Of a stretch of DNA of 35,000 nucleotides, positions 12,461 to 33,045 are shown in pieces. The DNA comes from Gemmatimonadota bacterium. GTDB taxonomy: Bacteria > Gemmatimonadota > Gemmatimonadetes > Gemmatimonadales > GWC2-71-9. Each line of letters begins with the position of its first letter. Position 1 is the stretch's first letter. The translations under genes and the position numbers were made by a program. The stretch spans positions 1-35,000 of the forward strand of contig JAABRY010000025.1 of the NCBI GenBank assembly GCA_011390645.1, in the 5' to 3' direction. The notes under the pieces were generated by a model that ran no database searches, was not told the origin of the DNA, and saw only the letters and a list, made by a program, of their open reading frames with translations.

Positions 12461-12593
12461 AGGTGAAACGTGAAAGGTGAAACGTGAAACGTGAAAGGTG
12501 AAAGGTGAAACGGGTGTAGGTGGGCCATCGCCCGGCACGGCACGCGGTGGTTCGCGTCGGGCCCCCTTTCACCTTTCACGTTTCACCTTTCAC
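12461..12593. repeat. GTGAAAC/G heptamer cassette, 7 units facing 4
   Basis: Seven 7-bp units (AGGTGAA/ACGTGAA in mixed order) run from 12461 to 12509. Four inverted units (CTTTCAC, CTTTCAC, GTTTCAC, CTTTCAC) run from 12566 to 12593. The core of about 55 bp ends in a C run. The last right-hand unit contains the TGA stop codon of moeA (12592-12590, minus strand). Together with the riboswitch this accounts for the whole 12244-12589 gap. Confidence 0.9.
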
Positions 12594-13825
12594 CCAAGCA
12601 CCACCGCCCGCATCACAGATCCCCCTGCGGCCACTCCCTCCCCAGCAGGCACCACCAGCAAGGCGTCGGCGAGGGCCATCGAGGTCAGCAACTGGGAGCC
12701 CTGCGGCCCCGTGAGCGAGGCGAGCGGCCGCCGCCCGGGGCGCGTGGTGAGGGTGCAGCGCTGGTAGAGCTCCAGCGTCGCGTCGCGGGCAACCTCCTCC
12801 GCCACTTCCACGTCGATCGTAGTGGGCTGGACGTCCTGGTGCCCCAGCAGCCGACGGATCGCTGGGCGGACAAAGAGCTGGAAAGTCACCATCGTGCTGA
12901 CCGGGTTGCCCGGGAGACCGAACCACGGCGTGCCCGAGGGGAAGCGTCCGAAGACGGTGGGGCCACCGGGCCGGAGCCGCACCCGATGGAACGCTTCGGT
13001 CACCCCGAGGGCGGCGAGGGCAGGGCGCACGAGGTCGCGATCGCCGACACTCACCCCGCCGGTGGTGATCAGGACGTCGAGCGATTCGCGCTGTGAAAGC
13101 ACCGCCTCCTGGATCGCCATGACGTCATCCACCGCCGGACCGAGCAGGATCGGGATGCCACCCGCTGATCGCACCGAGGCGGCCAGCGACACCGCGTTGG
13201 AGTTGCCGAGTCGTACACCCTGCCGGACGAGGGCGGCCTCTCCCGGTCGGGCCAACTCATCGCCGGTAGCCAGGATGCCGACGCGTGGGGGGGGGATGAC
13301 GGCAACGGACTCCGCACCGAGCGAGGCGAGCACCCCCAACCGAGCCGGCGTGAGCACCGAACCCACGGGGACCGGGACCACCCCTGCACGCACATCACCG
13401 CCCGCGGGACGCACATTCCGCAGGGCATCTCGGATGGAGGTGATGGCGACCGTGTCGCGTCCGAGATCGGTGTCCTCCTGGCGCACGACCGAATCTGTGC
13501 CCACCGGGACGATACCGCCGGTGTAGATGCGCATCGCCGCGCCCGGGGGCAGCGGTGCGGGTATCCCCCCCCCAGCTGCGGCCGTCCCGAGGACCGGCAT
13601 GCGAACGGGGGACGCCGCGGTCGCACCGGCAATCTCCGCGGCACGGACCGCATAGCCATCCATGGCAGCGTTGGGATGCGGTGGTACATCACACGGCGCC
13701 GCGATCGCTTCCATGAGGATCAGCCCGAGCGCCTCGTCAAGCGCCATCCGCCGCTCGGCACCCGGGGGGATGTGGGCGAGTAGCTGCGCCTGCGCCTCGG
13801 CGACGGTGGGTCGGAGGTCAGGCAT
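12590..13825 (-). CDS. moeA: Molybdopterin molybdenumtransferase
   Basis: Inserts molybdenum into adenylylated molybdopterin, the last general step of Mo-cofactor synthesis. The 411-residue product shows PHPNAAMDGYAVRA, IYTGGIVPVGTDSVVRQED, VGILATGDEL, the MoaB/Mog-like domain with TTGGVSVGDRDLV, RLRPGGPTVFG and WFGLPGNPVSTMVTF, then the C-terminal domain. The stop TGA is provided by the first GTGAAAG unit of the downstream repeat. Two nine-base runs of a single base (13287-13295 and 13565-13573) encode Pro-Pro-Pro and Gly-Gly-Gly. It is probably the last gene of the operon that begins with gpmI, 7 bp after its neighbour. Confidence 0.95.
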   Translation of the reverse strand: MPDLRPTVAEAQAQLLAHIPPGAERRMALDEALGLILMEAIAAPCDVPPHPNAAMDGYAVRAAEIAGATAASPVRMPVLGTAAAGGGIPAPLPPGAAMRIYTGGIVPVGTDSVVRQEDTDLGRDTVAITSIRDALRNVRPAGGDVRAGVVPVPVGSVLTPARLGVLASLGAESVAVIPPPRVGILATGDELARPGEAALVRQGVRLGNSNAVSLAASVRSAGGIPILLGPAVDDVMAIQEAVLSQRESLDVLITTGGVSVGDRDLVRPALAALGVTEAFHRVRLRPGGPTVFGRFPSGTPWFGLPGNPVSTMVTFQLFVRPAIRRLLGHQDVQPTTIDVEVAEEVARDATLELYQRCTLTTRPGRRPLASLTGPQGSQLLTSMALADALLVVPAGEGVAAGGSVMRAVVLG

Positions 13826-26551: not shown

Positions 26552-27286
26552 ATGACTGCCACCAAGCCCGACCTACCGGTCACGGGAGGAGACTCCAAGC
26601 GCGCCTACGTGCGGGAGATCTTCACGTCGATTGCGCCGCGCTACGACACCCTGAATCATCTCCTGTCGCTCAACGCGGACAAGCGCTGGCGCCGCCACGC
26701 GGTGGATGCCCTGGGATGGGAGGCGGCCCCTGATGGCACCTATCTGGATCTCTGTGCCGGCACCCAGGACCTGGCGGCCGAACTGGGCAATCGGGCGGCC
26801 TTCACCGGCCGGGTGATCGCTGCCGATTTCGTCCCGGCGATGCTGGTACGGGGTGCGGGCAAGAGTGCCAAGGTCCGTCCGGCGGCGGCCGATGCGCTTC
26901 GCCTCCCCTTCGAAGACGGGGTCTTCGATGGGGCGACAGTGGGCTTCGGGGTGCGGAACCTGATGGACCTGGATGCGGGTCTCCGGGAAGCGGCGCGCGT
27001 GCTGAAGCCCGGCGCGCGGTTCGTGGTGCTCGAATTCTCGACGCCGCGGTGGCAGCCGCTGCGGGCCCTCTACCTCTTCTACTTCCGGCACCTGCTCCCG
27101 CGGATCGGGCGCCTCGTGTCGAAACATAGGAGCGCTTACGACTGGCTTCCAGCGTCGGTGCTCGCCTTCCCCGAACCACCGGCCCTCGCCGAGCGCTTCC
27201 GGAACGCCGGATTCTCCTCGGTGACGTGGGCGACCCGGTGGGGCGGGATCGTCGCCATCCATGTCGGGGTACGGAGTGCATCATGA
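26552..27286 (+). CDS. ubiE: Demethylmenaquinone (or ubiquinone) C-methyltransferase
   Basis: SAM-dependent methyltransferase that adds the ring methyl group in the last step of menaquinone synthesis. The 244-residue product has the UbiE/MenG pattern: VREIFTSIAPRYDTLNHLLS, the SAM loop YLDLCAGTQDLA (a variant of the more usual D-x-ACGTGD), ADALRLPFEDGVFDGATVGFGVRN, REAARVLKPGARFVVLEFS and YFRHLLPRIGRLVS. ATG 26552 is used, with GTG one codon earlier as an alternative. The long open frame upstream is antisense to the sigma gene. It overlaps ubiD by 4 bp (ATGA), starting a quinone operon. The menaquinone assignment is inferred from neighbours. Confidence 0.94.
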   Translation: MTATKPDLPVTGGDSKRAYVREIFTSIAPRYDTLNHLLSLNADKRWRRHAVDALGWEAAPDGTYLDLCAGTQDLAAELGNRAAFTGRVIAADFVPAMLVRGAGKSAKVRPAAADALRLPFEDGVFDGATVGFGVRNLMDLDAGLREAARVLKPGARFVVLEFSTPRWQPLRALYLFYFRHLLPRIGRLVSKHRSAYDWLPASVLAFPEPPALAERFRNAGFSSVTWATRWGGIVAIHVGVRSAS

Positions 27287-28776
27287 GTCTTGATTCCCTC
27301 GCGGACTTCATTGCCGCCATCGAAAAAGCCGGCGAACTCGTCCGGATCACCCGTCCCGTCCGTACCCATCTGGAGATGGCGGAGATCGCCGATCGCACCA
27401 TGAAGCTCCCCGACGGCGGCCCCGCGCTGCTGTTCGAGAAGCCCCTGATGCCAGATGGTTCGATCTCGCCGATCCCGGTGGGGATCAACCTCTATGGCTC
27501 GCGCAAGCGGATGTGCCTCGCGCTCGGCGTCGAGCGCCTCGATGAAGTCGGCGATCGCATCGCCGAAATGATTCAGCTCAAGGTGCCGGATGGGCTGATG
27601 GGGAAGCTCTCGATGCTCCCCAAGCTGGCCGAGATGGCGAAGTATCCGCCGCGCGTGCGGTCGGGCAAGCCGGCGTGCCAGGAGGTGGTGTATCAGGGGG
27701 ACGACATCAACCTCGACACGCTGCCGATCCTGCAGACCTGGCCGCAGGATGGTGGGCGCTACCTCACCTTGCCGATGGTGATCACGCGCGATCCGAAGAC
27801 CGGTGGCAGGAACGTCGGGATGTATCGCGTGCAGGTGCAGGGGAAGCGCGAGCTGGCGATGCACTGGCAGCGGCACAAGAGCGGGGCCGCGCATTGGCGT
27901 GAGATGGCCGATCGCGGCGAAAAGATGCCGGTGGTGATCGCGCTGGGTGGTGATCCGGCGTCGCTCTACTCGGGCTCCGCGCCATTGCCGCCGATGATCG
28001 ACGAATTCTTGTTCTCGGGTTTCCTGCGGAAGAATCCGGTCGAACTCGCGAAGGCGCTGACGTGTGACCTCGATGTCCCGGCCGAAGCCGACATTGTGAT
28101 CGAAGGCTACGTGGACCCGAGCGAGGATTTGGTGATGGAGGGGCCGTTCGGCGATCACACCGGCTTCTACTCGCTCGCCGACTTGTATCCGCGGATGCAC
28201 ATCACCGCGGTCACAATGAAGAAGAAGCCGATCTATCCGGCCACGCTGGTCGGACGGCCGCCGATGGAGGACTTCTGGCTCGGCCACGCCACCGAGCGGA
28301 TCTTCCTGCCACTGCTGCGCATCACGGTGCCAGAGATCGTGGACTACCACATGCCGGCGGCGGGGATCTTCCACAACCTCGTCTTCGCGAGCATCGACAA
28401 GCAGTATCCGGGGCAGGCCTACAAGGTGATGCACGCGATGTGGGGCACCGGACTGATGTCGCTTTCGAAGGTGCTGGTGATCGTGGACAAGGACGTGAAC
28501 GTGCAGGACGAGCAGGAAGTGTGGTGGGTCGCGCTCAACAACATCGACCCGAAGCGCGACGTCGAGTTCGCGCGTGGCCCGGTGGATGTGCTCGACCACG
28601 CATCGCAGCATTTCTCGTTCGGCAGCAAGATGGGAATTGATGCGACACGGAAGTGGCCCGAGGAAGGGTTCACGCGCGAGTGGCCCGAGAAGATCGTGAT
28701 GGATGATGCGACGAAGGACGCGGTGGACAAGATGTGGGGGGAGTTGGGGATCGGGGCGGTGAAACGTGAGAGGTGA
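27283..28776 (+). CDS. ubiD: UbiD-family prenylated-FMN decarboxylase (probably menaquinone pathway)
   Basis: A 497-residue UbiD decarboxylase, which uses the prenylated FMN made by UbiX, encoded downstream. It shows the N-terminal SLADFIAAIEKAGELVRI, the prFMN/metal region GRYLTLPMVITRDPKTGGRNVGMYRVQVQ, MHWQRHKSGAAHWRE, DPSEDLVMEGPFGDHTGFYS and PPMEDFWLG. With UbiA, UbiX and UbiE it most likely acts in late menaquinone synthesis of the futalosine type (MqnL-like). The final residues VKRER and the stop TGA are encoded by repeat heptamers (28759-28776), so the original C terminus was probably a few residues different. Confidence 0.94.
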   Translation: MSLDSLADFIAAIEKAGELVRITRPVRTHLEMAEIADRTMKLPDGGPALLFEKPLMPDGSISPIPVGINLYGSRKRMCLALGVERLDEVGDRIAEMIQLKVPDGLMGKLSMLPKLAEMAKYPPRVRSGKPACQEVVYQGDDINLDTLPILQTWPQDGGRYLTLPMVITRDPKTGGRNVGMYRVQVQGKRELAMHWQRHKSGAAHWREMADRGEKMPVVIALGGDPASLYSGSAPLPPMIDEFLFSGFLRKNPVELAKALTCDLDVPAEADIVIEGYVDPSEDLVMEGPFGDHTGFYSLADLYPRMHITAVTMKKKPIYPATLVGRPPMEDFWLGHATERIFLPLLRITVPEIVDYHMPAAGIFHNLVFASIDKQYPGQAYKVMHAMWGTGLMSLSKVLVIVDKDVNVQDEQEVWWVALNNIDPKRDVEFARGPVDVLDHASQHFSFGSKMGIDATRKWPEEGFTREWPEKIVMDDATKDAVDKMWGELGIGAVKRER

Positions 28777-28826
28777 AACGGGTGGGGAGGGTGGCAGCAC
28801 GCCCCCTTTCACGTTTCACGTTTCAC
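28759..28826. repeat. GTGAAAC heptamer cassette bridging ubiD and ubiA
   Basis: Left units are GTGAAAC, GTGAGAG, GTGAAAC (28759-28779); right units are CTTTCAC, GTTTCAC, GTTTCAC (28806-28826). The core is 26 bp, starting with Gs and ending with Cs. The left array contains the ubiD stop and the ubiA GTG start, and the whole cassette is read as ubiA codons. Confidence 0.9.
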
Positions 28827-29719
28827 CCGGCACCCCCGAAGGCCAAACCTTCACCGGCGCCTCGGCCCTCTCCCGCTGGGCGAGCTTCGTCAAGCTCCCC
28901 CACACCCTCTTTGCGCTGCCGTTTGCGATGCTGGGTGTGCTGGCCGCGAGCATGGTCGCACCGGTGACCTGGCGCGTGGTGTTGTGGGTAGCGGTGGCGT
29001 TCAGCGCGGCGCGCTTCGCCGCGATGGGCTTCAACCGGATTGTGGACCGCGGCTTCGACGCCGCCAACCCGCGCACCGCCGCGCGCGAGCTGCCGCGCGG
29101 CGCAATCGGAGTAGGTCAGGCCAAGGTTGCCGTTGTGCTCGCGAGCATCCTGTTTGTGGTCGCAAGCTGGCAGTTGAATCCGCTTTGTCTGGTGCTCTCG
29201 CCCGTCGCACTCGCGTGGGTGTTGGGGTACTCGTATGCGAAGCGCTTCACCTCGTGGCCGCACCTCTGGCTCGGGATGTCGCTCGCGATCGCCCCGGTTG
29301 GTGGTTGGTTGGCAGTCACGGGCGCATGGAGCGAGCCTTGGTGGCTGCTGCTGGTGATCACGCTGGCGGTGATGACCTGGGTGGCAGGCTTCGATGTGTT
29401 CTACGCGCTGCCTGATGAAGGCTTTGATCGTGACCAGGGCTTGCGCAGCGCGGTGGTGCGCCTAGGGCAGCGGAAGGCGATTCTGTTCGGCAAGCTGCTG
29501 CACGGGGTGACGATCCCCGCGTTGGCACTCTTCGGCTGGGGCGCGGGATTCGGTCTCTGGTATTTCATCGGGGTTGGCGCAGCGGCCGCGATTCTGGCGT
29601 ATGAGCACCAATTGGTGCAACCAGGTGATCTTTCCAAGCTCGATGCCGCGTTCTTCACGATGAACGGCGTGATGAGCGTGACGGTGTTTGGGTTCGCGGT
29701 GGTGGATAGGCTGGTGTAG
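28766..29719 (+). CDS. ubiA: UbiA-family prenyltransferase (probably MqnP-like), with repeat-encoded N terminus
   Basis: Integral membrane prenyltransferase that attaches the polyprenyl tail to the quinone ring precursor. The core begins at about residue 35 with SRWASFVKLPHTLFALPFAMLG. The two Asp-rich motifs are NRIVDRGFDAANPRTAAREL and DVFYALPDEGFDRDQGLRS, and eight to nine hydrophobic segments follow. The only start available is GTG 28766: an in-frame TGA lies at 28760-28762, and no ATG, GTG or TTG follows before the conserved core. The first 20 residues or so (MRGETGG... PFTFHVSP) are therefore translated heptamer repeat. The start lies 11 bp inside the ubiD end, so translation is probably coupled. 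Confidence 0.9.
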   Translation: MRGETGGEGGSTPPFTFHVSPGTPEGQTFTGASALSRWASFVKLPHTLFALPFAMLGVLAASMVAPVTWRVVLWVAVAFSAARFAAMGFNRIVDRGFDAANPRTAARELPRGAIGVGQAKVAVVLASILFVVASWQLNPLCLVLSPVALAWVLGYSYAKRFTSWPHLWLGMSLAIAPVGGWLAVTGAWSEPWWLLLVITLAVMTWVAGFDVFYALPDEGFDRDQGLRSAVVRLGQRKAILFGKLLHGVTIPALALFGWGAGFGLWYFIGVGAAAAILAYEHQLVQPGDLSKLDAAFFTMNGVMSVTVFGFAVVDRLV

Positions 29720-29722
29720 CTG

Positions 29723-29926
29723 GGTGAACGGTGAACGGTGAACGGTGAACGGGGGGTGAGGCCACAGGATGTCATCCCGACCGGAGCGGCGGCGAAGCCG
29801 TCGCGCAGCGGAGGGATCTGCACGTTGCCGGGCCCAGTGAAGTACAGATCCCTCGACTCCGGCGCTACGCGCCTTCGCTCGGGATGACGGGGTCAGGCAC
29901 CCCCCGTTCACCGTTCACCGTTCACC
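29723..29926. repeat. Full cassette: GTGAACG heptamers around paired GTCATCCCGA arms
   Basis: Four GGTGAAC units (29723-29750) begin 4 bp after the ubiA stop, and three GTTCACC units (29906-29926) close the cassette. Between them lie two imperfect inverted arms: 29771-29820 starts GTCATCCCGACCGGAGC and ends GAGGGATCTG, and 29845-29888 starts CAGATCCCTCGA and ends TCGGGATGAC. This is the most complete cassette in the window and accounts for the ubiA-ubiX gap. Confidence 0.9.
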
Positions 29927-29948
29927 GTAACAGGAGTCCTGAATAACG

Positions 29949-30536
29949 ATGCCCTCCCAGCTCCCCGTCGTCCTTGCCATCACCGGCGCCTCTGGCGCCC
30001 CCTACGCCGTGCGGCTGCTCGACGTGCTCGCGCGCGCGCAGGTACCGGTGGACCTGATCATCTCCTCTCATGGCTGGCGATTGCTGGAGACGGAATCTGG
30101 CGTGCGCGACGATCGCGAGTTGCGCGAGGCGACGGGGGGTGATTGGTCGAGCATCACCGTGCACCCCGACAACGATCGCGGCGCGCGGCCGGCGTCGGGT
30201 TCCTACCGTACGCGCGGGATGGTGATCTGTCCATGCTCGATGGGAACGGTGGCGGCGATTGCGGGTGGGACGTCACGCTCATTGGTCGAGCGCGCGGCCG
30301 ACGTGATGCTCAAGGAGCGGCGCACGCTGATACTGGTACCGCGCGAGACGCCGTTCTCGCTGGTGCACCTGCGCAACCTCACGGCGGTCACCGAAGCGGG
30401 CGCCACCGTGATGCCGGCGGCGCCGGGATTCTATCACAGGCCGGAGCGGATCGAGCAGTTGGTGGACTTCGTGGTGCAGCGCATTGTGGACCACCTCCAA
30501 CTTGATATCGACATCGCCCCGCGCTGGGAGGGCTGA
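29949..30536 (+). CDS. ubiX: UbiX-family flavin prenyltransferase
   Basis: Joins dimethylallyl phosphate to FMN, making the prenyl-FMN cofactor needed by UbiD upstream. The 195-residue length is typical. It shows the flavin-binding start VVLAITGASGAPYAVRLLDVL, DLIISSHGWRLL, the ICPCSMGTVAAIAGGTSRSL segment, AADVMLKERRTLILVPRETPFSLVHLRNL and PAAPGFYHRP. An AGGAG lies 12 bp before the ATG, directly after the last repeat unit. It is 3 bp from the downstream phosphoesterase gene. Confidence 0.95.
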   Translation: MPSQLPVVLAITGASGAPYAVRLLDVLARAQVPVDLIISSHGWRLLETESGVRDDRELREATGGDWSSITVHPDNDRGARPASGSYRTRGMVICPCSMGTVAAIAGGTSRSLVERAADVMLKERRTLILVPRETPFSLVHLRNLTAVTEAGATVMPAAPGFYHRPERIEQLVDFVVQRIVDHLQLDIDIAPRWEG

Positions 30537-31158: not shown

Positions 31159-31800
31159 GTGCACGCACCCCGCATTCTTGTTGCCGCTTCCCTCCTGCTC
31201 GCACCGGCGGCCGTTGCCGCCCAGTTCCAGTCGGGTGCCTCCTCGTGGATCACCTCCCCGACCGGCGAGATCACCTTCGCCGGGCTCGCCGACGAGGTGG
31301 TGATCACCGATCAGTATCTGGCCAGTGACGGCGTCCTCTTCACCAACCTCGAGGGCAACACCGCGACGAGCTCGGTGTTCACCGCACCGTACGCCCTCAA
31401 CTGGCTCGGGTCGCAGCCGTGGCAACCAATTGGCATCACCTTCTCGTCACCGATCGCCAGTCTGGCGTTCCTGGGGCGAGCCAATACCGGCTCGGCGTTT
31501 TTCGAGGCCTTCCTCGCCGACGCCCCGGTATTCTCCGGCTTCCTGGATATCGAGCCGCAAGCGCTCCGATGGTTCGGCTTCGAGGGCGCCAACGTCGACC
31601 GCATCCGGATGACGGCGCCGAGCGGCACCAACGGATTGATCGCGATCGACAACGTGCAGTGGCTCAACGCGAGCCTCATCGATGACGACCCGCCGGTCGG
31701 CGGCGATGTGGTGCCGGAGCCGGCGACGATGACGCTGCTCGCGACGGGGATGGCAGGGCTGCTGGCGGCACGGCGGCGGAAGCGGGGTCGTGAGTCGTGA
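31159..31800 (+). CDS. PEP-CTERM sorting-domain protein 1
   Basis: A 213-residue exported protein. It has an N-terminal signal peptide (ILVAASLLLAPAAVAAQ), a mature domain of about 165 residues with Ser/Thr/Gly-rich, beta-like sequence, and a C-terminal PEP-CTERM signal: VPEP (about 188), a hydrophobic segment LLATGMAGLLAARR and a basic end. Such proteins are processed and anchored by an exosortase, which is not in this window. The sequence ends RGRES followed by TGA, all read from GTCGTGA heptamers. AAGG lies about 5 bp before the GTG start. The mature domain is not one I recognise. Confidence 0.85.
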   Translation: MHAPRILVAASLLLAPAAVAAQFQSGASSWITSPTGEITFAGLADEVVITDQYLASDGVLFTNLEGNTATSSVFTAPYALNWLGSQPWQPIGITFSSPIASLAFLGRANTGSAFFEAFLADAPVFSGFLDIEPQALRWFGFEGANVDRIRMTAPSGTNGLIAIDNVQWLNASLIDDDPPVGGDVVPEPATMTLLATGMAGLLAARRRKRGRES

Positions 31801-31919
31801 GAAGAAGCGTGAAAGGTGAAACGTGAAAGGGGATGTATCCCTTCCTCCCGTTTCACCTTTCACCTTTTGCGTTTCACGACCTACGACCTACGACCCACGA
31901 CCCACGACGAGTCACGACA
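31787..31919. repeat. Nested cassette: GTCGTGA, GTGAAAG, core, CTTTCAC, GACCTAC/GACCCAC
   Basis: Two GTCGTGA units (31787-31800) contain the PEP-CTERM 1 stop. Then come GTGAAAG, GTGAAAC, GTGAAAG (31809-31829), a core GGGATGTATCCCTTCCTCC, inverted units GTTTCAC, CTTTCAC, a degenerate CTTTTGC and GTTTCAC (31850-31877), and then GACCTAC twice and GACCCAC twice (31878-31905), ending in a GAGTCACGAC remnant. The inner part is nearly identical to 32918-32978. Confidence 0.9.
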
Positions 31920-32877: not shown

Positions 32878-32880
32878 TCA

Positions 32881-33045
32881 GTCGTGAGTCGTGAGACGTT
32901 AGACGCTGGGGAAAACATGAAAGGTGAAACGTGAAAGGGGATGTATCCCTTCCTCCCGTTTCACCTTTCACGTTTCACGACCTACGACCTACGACCTACG
33001 ACCTACGACCTACGACCTACGACCTACGACCTACGACCTACGACC
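32881..33045. repeat. Nested cassette with nine GACCTAC units between convergent genes
   Basis: The left side has GTCGTGA twice, then decayed GACGTTA and GACGCTG (32881-32908), then ATGAAAG, GTGAAAC, GTGAAAG. The core is GGGATGTATCCCTTCCTCC. The right side has GTTTCAC, CTTTCAC, GTTTCAC (32958-32978), then nine perfect GACCTAC units (32979-33041). It starts 3 bp after the PEP-CTERM 2 stop and ends 2 bp before the stop of the convergent minus-strand gene, so it is the whole intergenic region. Confidence 0.92.

Follow-up and report, generated by a model that had tools for sequence, protein, structure and literature searches.

A heptamer-repeat cassette at the ubiD-ubiA junction of a Gemmatimonadota genome and the predicted repeat-derived N terminus of UbiA

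In a Gemmatimonadota genome, the junction between ubiD and ubiA is occupied by a cassette formed of a 25-nt inverted repeat of heptamers (positions 28758-28827 of the window, the whole 35,000-nt stretch of DNA that was analysed). A sequence-only reading of the window had claimed that the repeat supplies the UbiD stop codon, the UbiA start codon and the UbiA N terminus. This is seen directly in the sequence of the cassette, and the coordinates, the codons and the residue count (~20) given by that reading were found to be correct. The cassette, whose sequence now encodes the end of UbiD together with the start codon and roughly the first 20 residues of UbiA, is probably a hairpin of a genome-wide heptamer class that was tolerated in an already coupled junction.

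The junction cassette and the start of UbiA

The window comes from a metagenome-assembled genome (MAG) that is 86% complete, coded G000 below. The features of the region are collected in Table 1. The two arms of the cassette are 88% complementary, and the left arm is imperfect, with one unit reading GTGAGAG. The last codons of UbiD, GTG AAA CGT GAG AGG TGA (28759-28776, VKRER*), are encoded by the cassette. In the UbiA frame, a TGA (28760-28762) and an AAC precede the GTG at 28766. The cassette-encoded part of UbiA comprises residues 1 to 20/21, and the peptide predicted from the translated repeat begins with RGETGGEGGSTPPFTFHVSPGTPEGQTF...

Table 1. Positions of genes and repeat features around the ubiD-ubiA junction
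Feature	Position in window	Strand	Sequence, score or remark
UbiD-family menaquinone decarboxylase	27283..28776	+	TIGR03701, 626 bits (cut-off 496)
Purine-rich 5' arm	28758..28782	+	GTGAAAC, GTGAGAG, GTGAAAC, then GGG (GGTGAAACGTGAGAGGTGAAACGGG); inverted-repeat search, TRF
UbiA GTG start	28766..28768	+	Within second heptamer; 11-nt overlap with ubiD
UbiA/MqnP-like prenyltransferase	28766..29719	+	TIGR01475, 281 bits (cut-off 181); conserved part from EGQTF (28838)
ubiD TGA stop	28774..28776	+	Within third heptamer
Cassette loop, 20 nt	28783..28802	+	Differs among cassettes within its own genome
Pyrimidine-rich 3' arm	28803..28827	+	CTTTCAC, GTTTCAC, GTTTCAC, then C (CCCCTTTCACGTTTCACGTTTCACC); TRF; open in all three frames
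Second heptamer cassette	29723..29928	+	GGTGAAC x4 ... CCGTTCA x3.6; 3 nt past ubiA stop; TRF, inverted-repeat search
UbiX-family flavin prenyltransferase	29949..30536	+	TIGR00421, 182 bits (cut-off 109)

The matches to TIGR03701 and to TIGR01475, a UbiA-like polyprenyltransferase model, together with the UbiE/MenG and UbiX family matches found upstream and downstream of ubiD-ubiA by family-model search, make it likely that these genes belong to a futalosine-type menaquinone operon and not to a ubiquinone operon. The MqnP models also match UbiA but score below their own cut-offs. Upstream of the cassette, a 4-nt overlap of ubiE and ubiD (ATGA, 27283-27286) gives the operon the appearance of coupling there as well. 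Within the GGTGAAC cassette that follows ubiA, a palindrome of GTCATCCCGA / TCGGGATGAC type is found at 29771-29888.

After the GTG at 28766, the next ATG, GTG or TTG in the UbiA frame is the ATG at 28928 (residue 55). Among the near-cognate codons checked between these two positions, only ACG is found, at 28778, 28799 and 28811, and all three lie in the cassette. When 48 UbiA proteins of the family and order are aligned, Q27, G31, V42, H46, T47, F49, A50, P52 and F53 are invariant, and E25, G26 and T28 are nearly so. Initiation at one of the ACG codons or at ATG 28928, which would leave the repeat untranslated or translate less of it, is thus very improbable: the ATG is excluded because all of these residues would be lost, and an ACG start would still be inside the cassette. 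As no usable start among the codons checked lies outside the cassette, part of the repeat must be translated if the assembly is correct, and by this reading GTG 28766 is the only usable start. That the cassette is itself an assembly artefact is hardly credible. The source is a MAG and repeats collapse easily, but the reading frame is open, the cassette is short with unique sequence on its flanks, and similar junctions are present in the independently assembled genomes G005, G009, G028 and G083. The AlphaFold2 confidence (pLDDT) for UbiA is 52, 60 and 67 in the first three ten-residue blocks, 89 in the fourth and 88-99 thereafter, and the repeat-derived N terminus is therefore probably disordered.

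UbiA was searched for in 61 and later in 102 genomes. The sequence-only reading had proposed an alignment of UbiD-UbiA junctions from relatives, and had named conservation of the same N-terminal residues where the repeat is missing as the result that would count against it. The cassette-free relatives show an empty junction, and in 39 of these 64 the stop and the start overlap by 4 nt (NTGA). What follows is mostly a short stretch of residues without conservation, ahead of (R)EGQTF; the N-terminal residues of the cassette are not conserved in them. Since these relatives have a short overlap and a short, variable N terminus, the cassette and the long UbiA N terminus of the window are, by this comparison, the derived state.

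Heptamer arrays in relatives and across the genome

Arrays of period 7 have been found at the ubiD-ubiA junction in 10 genomes, against 0.35 expected from shuffles of 89 junctions. Besides the window, the genus contributes four species with other sequences, with the units GACGAGA/GACGCGA (G003), GGATGAT (G004), GGGAACA (G005) and GTGAGAC/GTGAAAC (G009). Outside the genus, the units are GGTGAAC (G018), GTGGGAA (G023) and GCACCAC (G028 and G083). The tenth genome, G053, has a weak GGGTGAG-like unit. Junction arrays of period 8 are present in five genomes (expected 0.1) and of period 10 in six (expected 0.05). Arrays of period 8 or 10 are found in other clades of the family (L098, L091 = G096, G098; L129, L132, L140 = G061, G072, G084), and period 8 is also dominant in small samples of G096, G098 and G101. 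None of the periods 7, 8 and 10 is divisible by three. The junctions of G001 and G097 hold other palindromes. The one in G001 (L004; GTCATCCTGAGCGGAGC...) is similar to the palindrome at 29771-29888, and its end supplies an ATG.

Translation of the repeat is predicted to recur in these relatives, so the finding is slightly larger than first stated. G005 retains the GTGA overlap, and the added stretch accounts for 36 UbiA residues (VREQGTGNGRARGDSHPDLDNGAAVPFPVPRSPVSR). For G009, UbiA starts either within a heptamer or 18 nt downstream of one, leaving 32 or 26 residues before EGQTF. In both genomes UbiA can start only with at least 26 cassette-derived residues. G028 and G083 also retain the overlap, and their GCACCAC array is read as translated. 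The UbiA tree places G000, G005, G003 and G004 in one clade (100/83), and G009 groups with G001, which has no heptamer array at this junction. As a result, more than one gain, or losses, would be needed within the genus.

The heptamers are not confined to the junction. Array rates were taken from stretch samples (206 kb of G000 and 400 kb of G009). In G000, 42 runs of period 7 (20.3 per 100 kb) are found, mainly of GTGAAAC/G, GTCGTAG, GGATGTT and GGTGAAC; for each remaining period in the range 3-15 the count is 0 to 2 (at most 1 per 100 kb), the multiple 14 excepted. The G009 sample holds 27 period-7 runs with units other than those of G000. The pattern GTGAAACGTGAAASGTGAAA, with one mismatch allowed, has 255 matches in the G000 genome vs 0 for the reversed control, and the window cassette unit is matched 28 times in G009 but not at all in the remaining eight genomes of the genus. 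Because period 7 alone is enriched and the control gives no match, the junction cassette is not a chance feature. No period-7 runs were found in 40 kb each of the same-genus G001 (L212-L213) and G007 (L217-L218), although such runs abound in close relatives; at ubiA-ubiX, G001 does carry one array.

Dozens of cassettes in G000 are built alike, with three heptamers and GGG before a loop and CCC and three heptamers behind it, and the copies have only the arms in common, the loops being different. Some are nested, with GTCGTAG arms outside and GTGAAAG arms inside. The purine arm comes first in 21 inverted pairs vs 1 the other way. The arms are not exact copies of each other: the C/G agreement of matching units is 16/34, and shuffled pairing scores as high in 124 of 500 trials. 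With genes called by a simple codon-usage caller, 63% of the arrays in G000 and 84% in G009 lie within 12 nt of a stop codon (random placement 44% and 57%), and the array extends into the stop codon or beyond it at 20% and 56% of stop-facing ends, respectively. The stop-adjacent arm is purine-rich in the gene sense in 45 of 55 cases.

Further sites in the window belong beside these observations. The stop of a moeA-like gene on the minus strand (12565-12594) is the TGA of a GTGAAAG heptamer, and that cassette is absent from nine same-genus relatives. At 31787-31908 and 32880-33045, two nested cassettes with GTCGTGA/GTCGTAG-type outer arms, GTGAAAG inner arms and a common loop (GGGGATGTATCCCTTCCTCCC) each follow a PEP-CTERM-like gene, and are likely to represent a duplicated cassette plus gene.

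Tolerance, origin and possible function of the array

Any run of GTGA units has both a TGA and a GTG in each frame, and its reverse arm is stop-free. Three units suffice for a TGA in every frame because the period of 7 equals 1 mod 3. All 17 distinct GTGA-type cassettes provide stops in 3/3 frames on both strands (34/34 readings; shuffles 4%). Open starts in all three frames are found in 8/34 cassette readings vs 15% of shuffles, and typically about two of the three frames have an open start in cassettes and shuffles alike, so start supply was rejected as a special property of the cassette. The supply of stops is thus a real property of the GTGA unit, and the supply of starts is what would be expected of a GC-rich insert anyway.

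The hairpin of the window cassette has a stability z of -3.2, that of G009 -4.0, and two other cassettes reach -6.8 and -7.9. The G005 junction is not extra-stable (z = +2.2), the folded part being without the 5' arm of the array. A stem over the start is predicted for G000 and G009 only. The UbiA start, in the 5' arm of the stem, has a predicted unpaired probability of at most 0.001. When a ribosome footprint is held open at the UbiD stop in the folding model, the other arm is on average 43% unpaired vs 6%. The stop and start of ubiD and ubiA overlap, as is looked for in translational coupling. Based on these predictions, the coupling of the two genes through the repeat is plausible, and tight coupling is probable because the UbiA start sits in the 5' hairpin stem. 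No intrinsic terminator (a GC-rich stem with a T run) was found at the junction, and Rfam 15 gave no match at the gathering score in the window.

In the sequence of events that we consider probable, a heptamer-armed hairpin cassette would arrive, as an insertion or an expansion, at a short stop/start overlap. It would be tolerated there for three reasons. Ahead of EGQTF, neither the length nor the sequence of UbiA is conserved, and this part is probably disordered; the TGA in every frame would end ubiD while the stop-free TTTCAC arm keeps ubiA open; and a GC-rich, GTG-bearing insert would give an in-frame start about two thirds of the time. Ribosomes terminating on ubiD may then open the stem, and ubiA would be translated by reinitiation. 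Prior coupling, a dispensable N terminus and an all-frame stop are enough for the operon to survive, and usefulness of the cassette is not required. The interpretation given by the sequence-only reading is supported in part: the supply of stop, start and N terminus stands, coupling is plausible, and the domestication and the essential role of the operon that it claimed are conjectural.

Growth in place is another possible origin of the array: slippage would have extended an ancestral GTGA stop/start, and template switching would have produced the second arm. Many relatives have GTGA as their ancestral overlap, the unit begins with GTGA, and G005 and G009 retain the 4-nt overlap beside or inside the array. 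On the other hand, the unit is present at many other G000 loci (the 255 matches), so that spreading of the unit is needed anyway, and the junction units of G003 and G028 have no GTGA. We regard this origin as doubtful, though worth serious consideration. A function for the array appears somewhat less probable and is, in our judgement, unlikely: a selected regulatory element (an attenuator, an mRNA stability element or a coupling hairpin) that tunes the prenyltransferase would lie behind the recurrence of arrays on both sides of ubiA. Such recurrence is found. Arrays are present at ubiD-ubiA and ubiA-ubiX in 8/14 same-genus comparisons, vs 1/25 at three further window sites that carry arrays, where the low count rejects a general sharing of array sites between species. 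A strict count is 7/14, dropping the ubiA-ubiX array of G001, which was found by one search and missed by a shorter-reach search. The Fisher p-values against 1/25 (0.0004 for 8/14, 0.0014 for 7/14) are rough because the species are not independent. However, both ubiA-flanking junctions are array-free in G006 and G007, the units and predicted folds vary by species, and the junction has no terminator-like site. In a further reading, one clade of the genus would hold both ubiA-flanking arrays by descent, with the units rewritten in each species by genome-wide copying of its own current heptamer, so that the sites persist while the repeat sequence, together with the UbiA N terminus, is replaced; this we think quite improbable.

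Known repeat systems and meaning for the family

The closest likeness is to the heptameric GGGNATC repeats of Xanthomonas and Nostoc, which are found genome-wide and are mostly intergenic (Rehm et al. 2015, PMC4692102). Their G-rich strand lies in the sense direction, 0-50 bp from stop codons, and some overlap the stop; Xanthomonas has 70-75 convergent inverted pairs per genome (PMC4692102). The repeats described here likewise have a 7-nt tandem unit present genome-wide, lie beside or over stops with the G-rich strand in sense, and form convergent inverted pairs. They differ in having several unit types per genome, which are species-specific and form nested pairs, and in that the array also provides the start codon and the N-terminal residues of a protein. 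The G-quadruplex potential of the GGGNATC unit is not matched either, since the main units here lack a GGG tract in each unit. The class described here looks like the Rehm type and probably shares its behaviour, with other, changing units.

Other systems are more distant. The TAACTGA repeats of marine Beggiatoaceae (MacGregor 2015, PMC4679880) are also intergenic heptamer direct repeats, some in ribosomal operons, but they have a single unit, lie just upstream of start codons and are almost never inverted (PMC4679880). The palindromic elements of Rickettsia are similarly translated in frame within metabolic proteins, but are ~150 bp long and fall into defined families, unlike the 70-bp cassette with heptamer arms at a gene junction (reviewed in PMC10969869). 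Borg tandem repeats evolve fast and yield disordered, sometimes N-terminal, protein segments, but their units in ORFs are divisible by three (PMC9879509), in contrast to 7, 8 or 10 here. Copies of MITEs or REPINs have a conserved body in common, and here only the arms are shared. A literature search, with most subscription papers outside its reach, found nothing linking Gemmatimonadota with heptamer repeats and no report of a heptamer array that provides a start codon and an N terminus.

This case shows how a closely packed operon can take up a 7-nt repeat (1 mod 3) between two genes: both survive because one arm of the repeat places a stop in each frame and the opposite arm contains none. The heptamer units turn over between species of one genus. 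Several species with different repeats at one junction form a natural replicate series, in which one can test how repeat DNA gives rise to a new N terminus and what this does to coupling.
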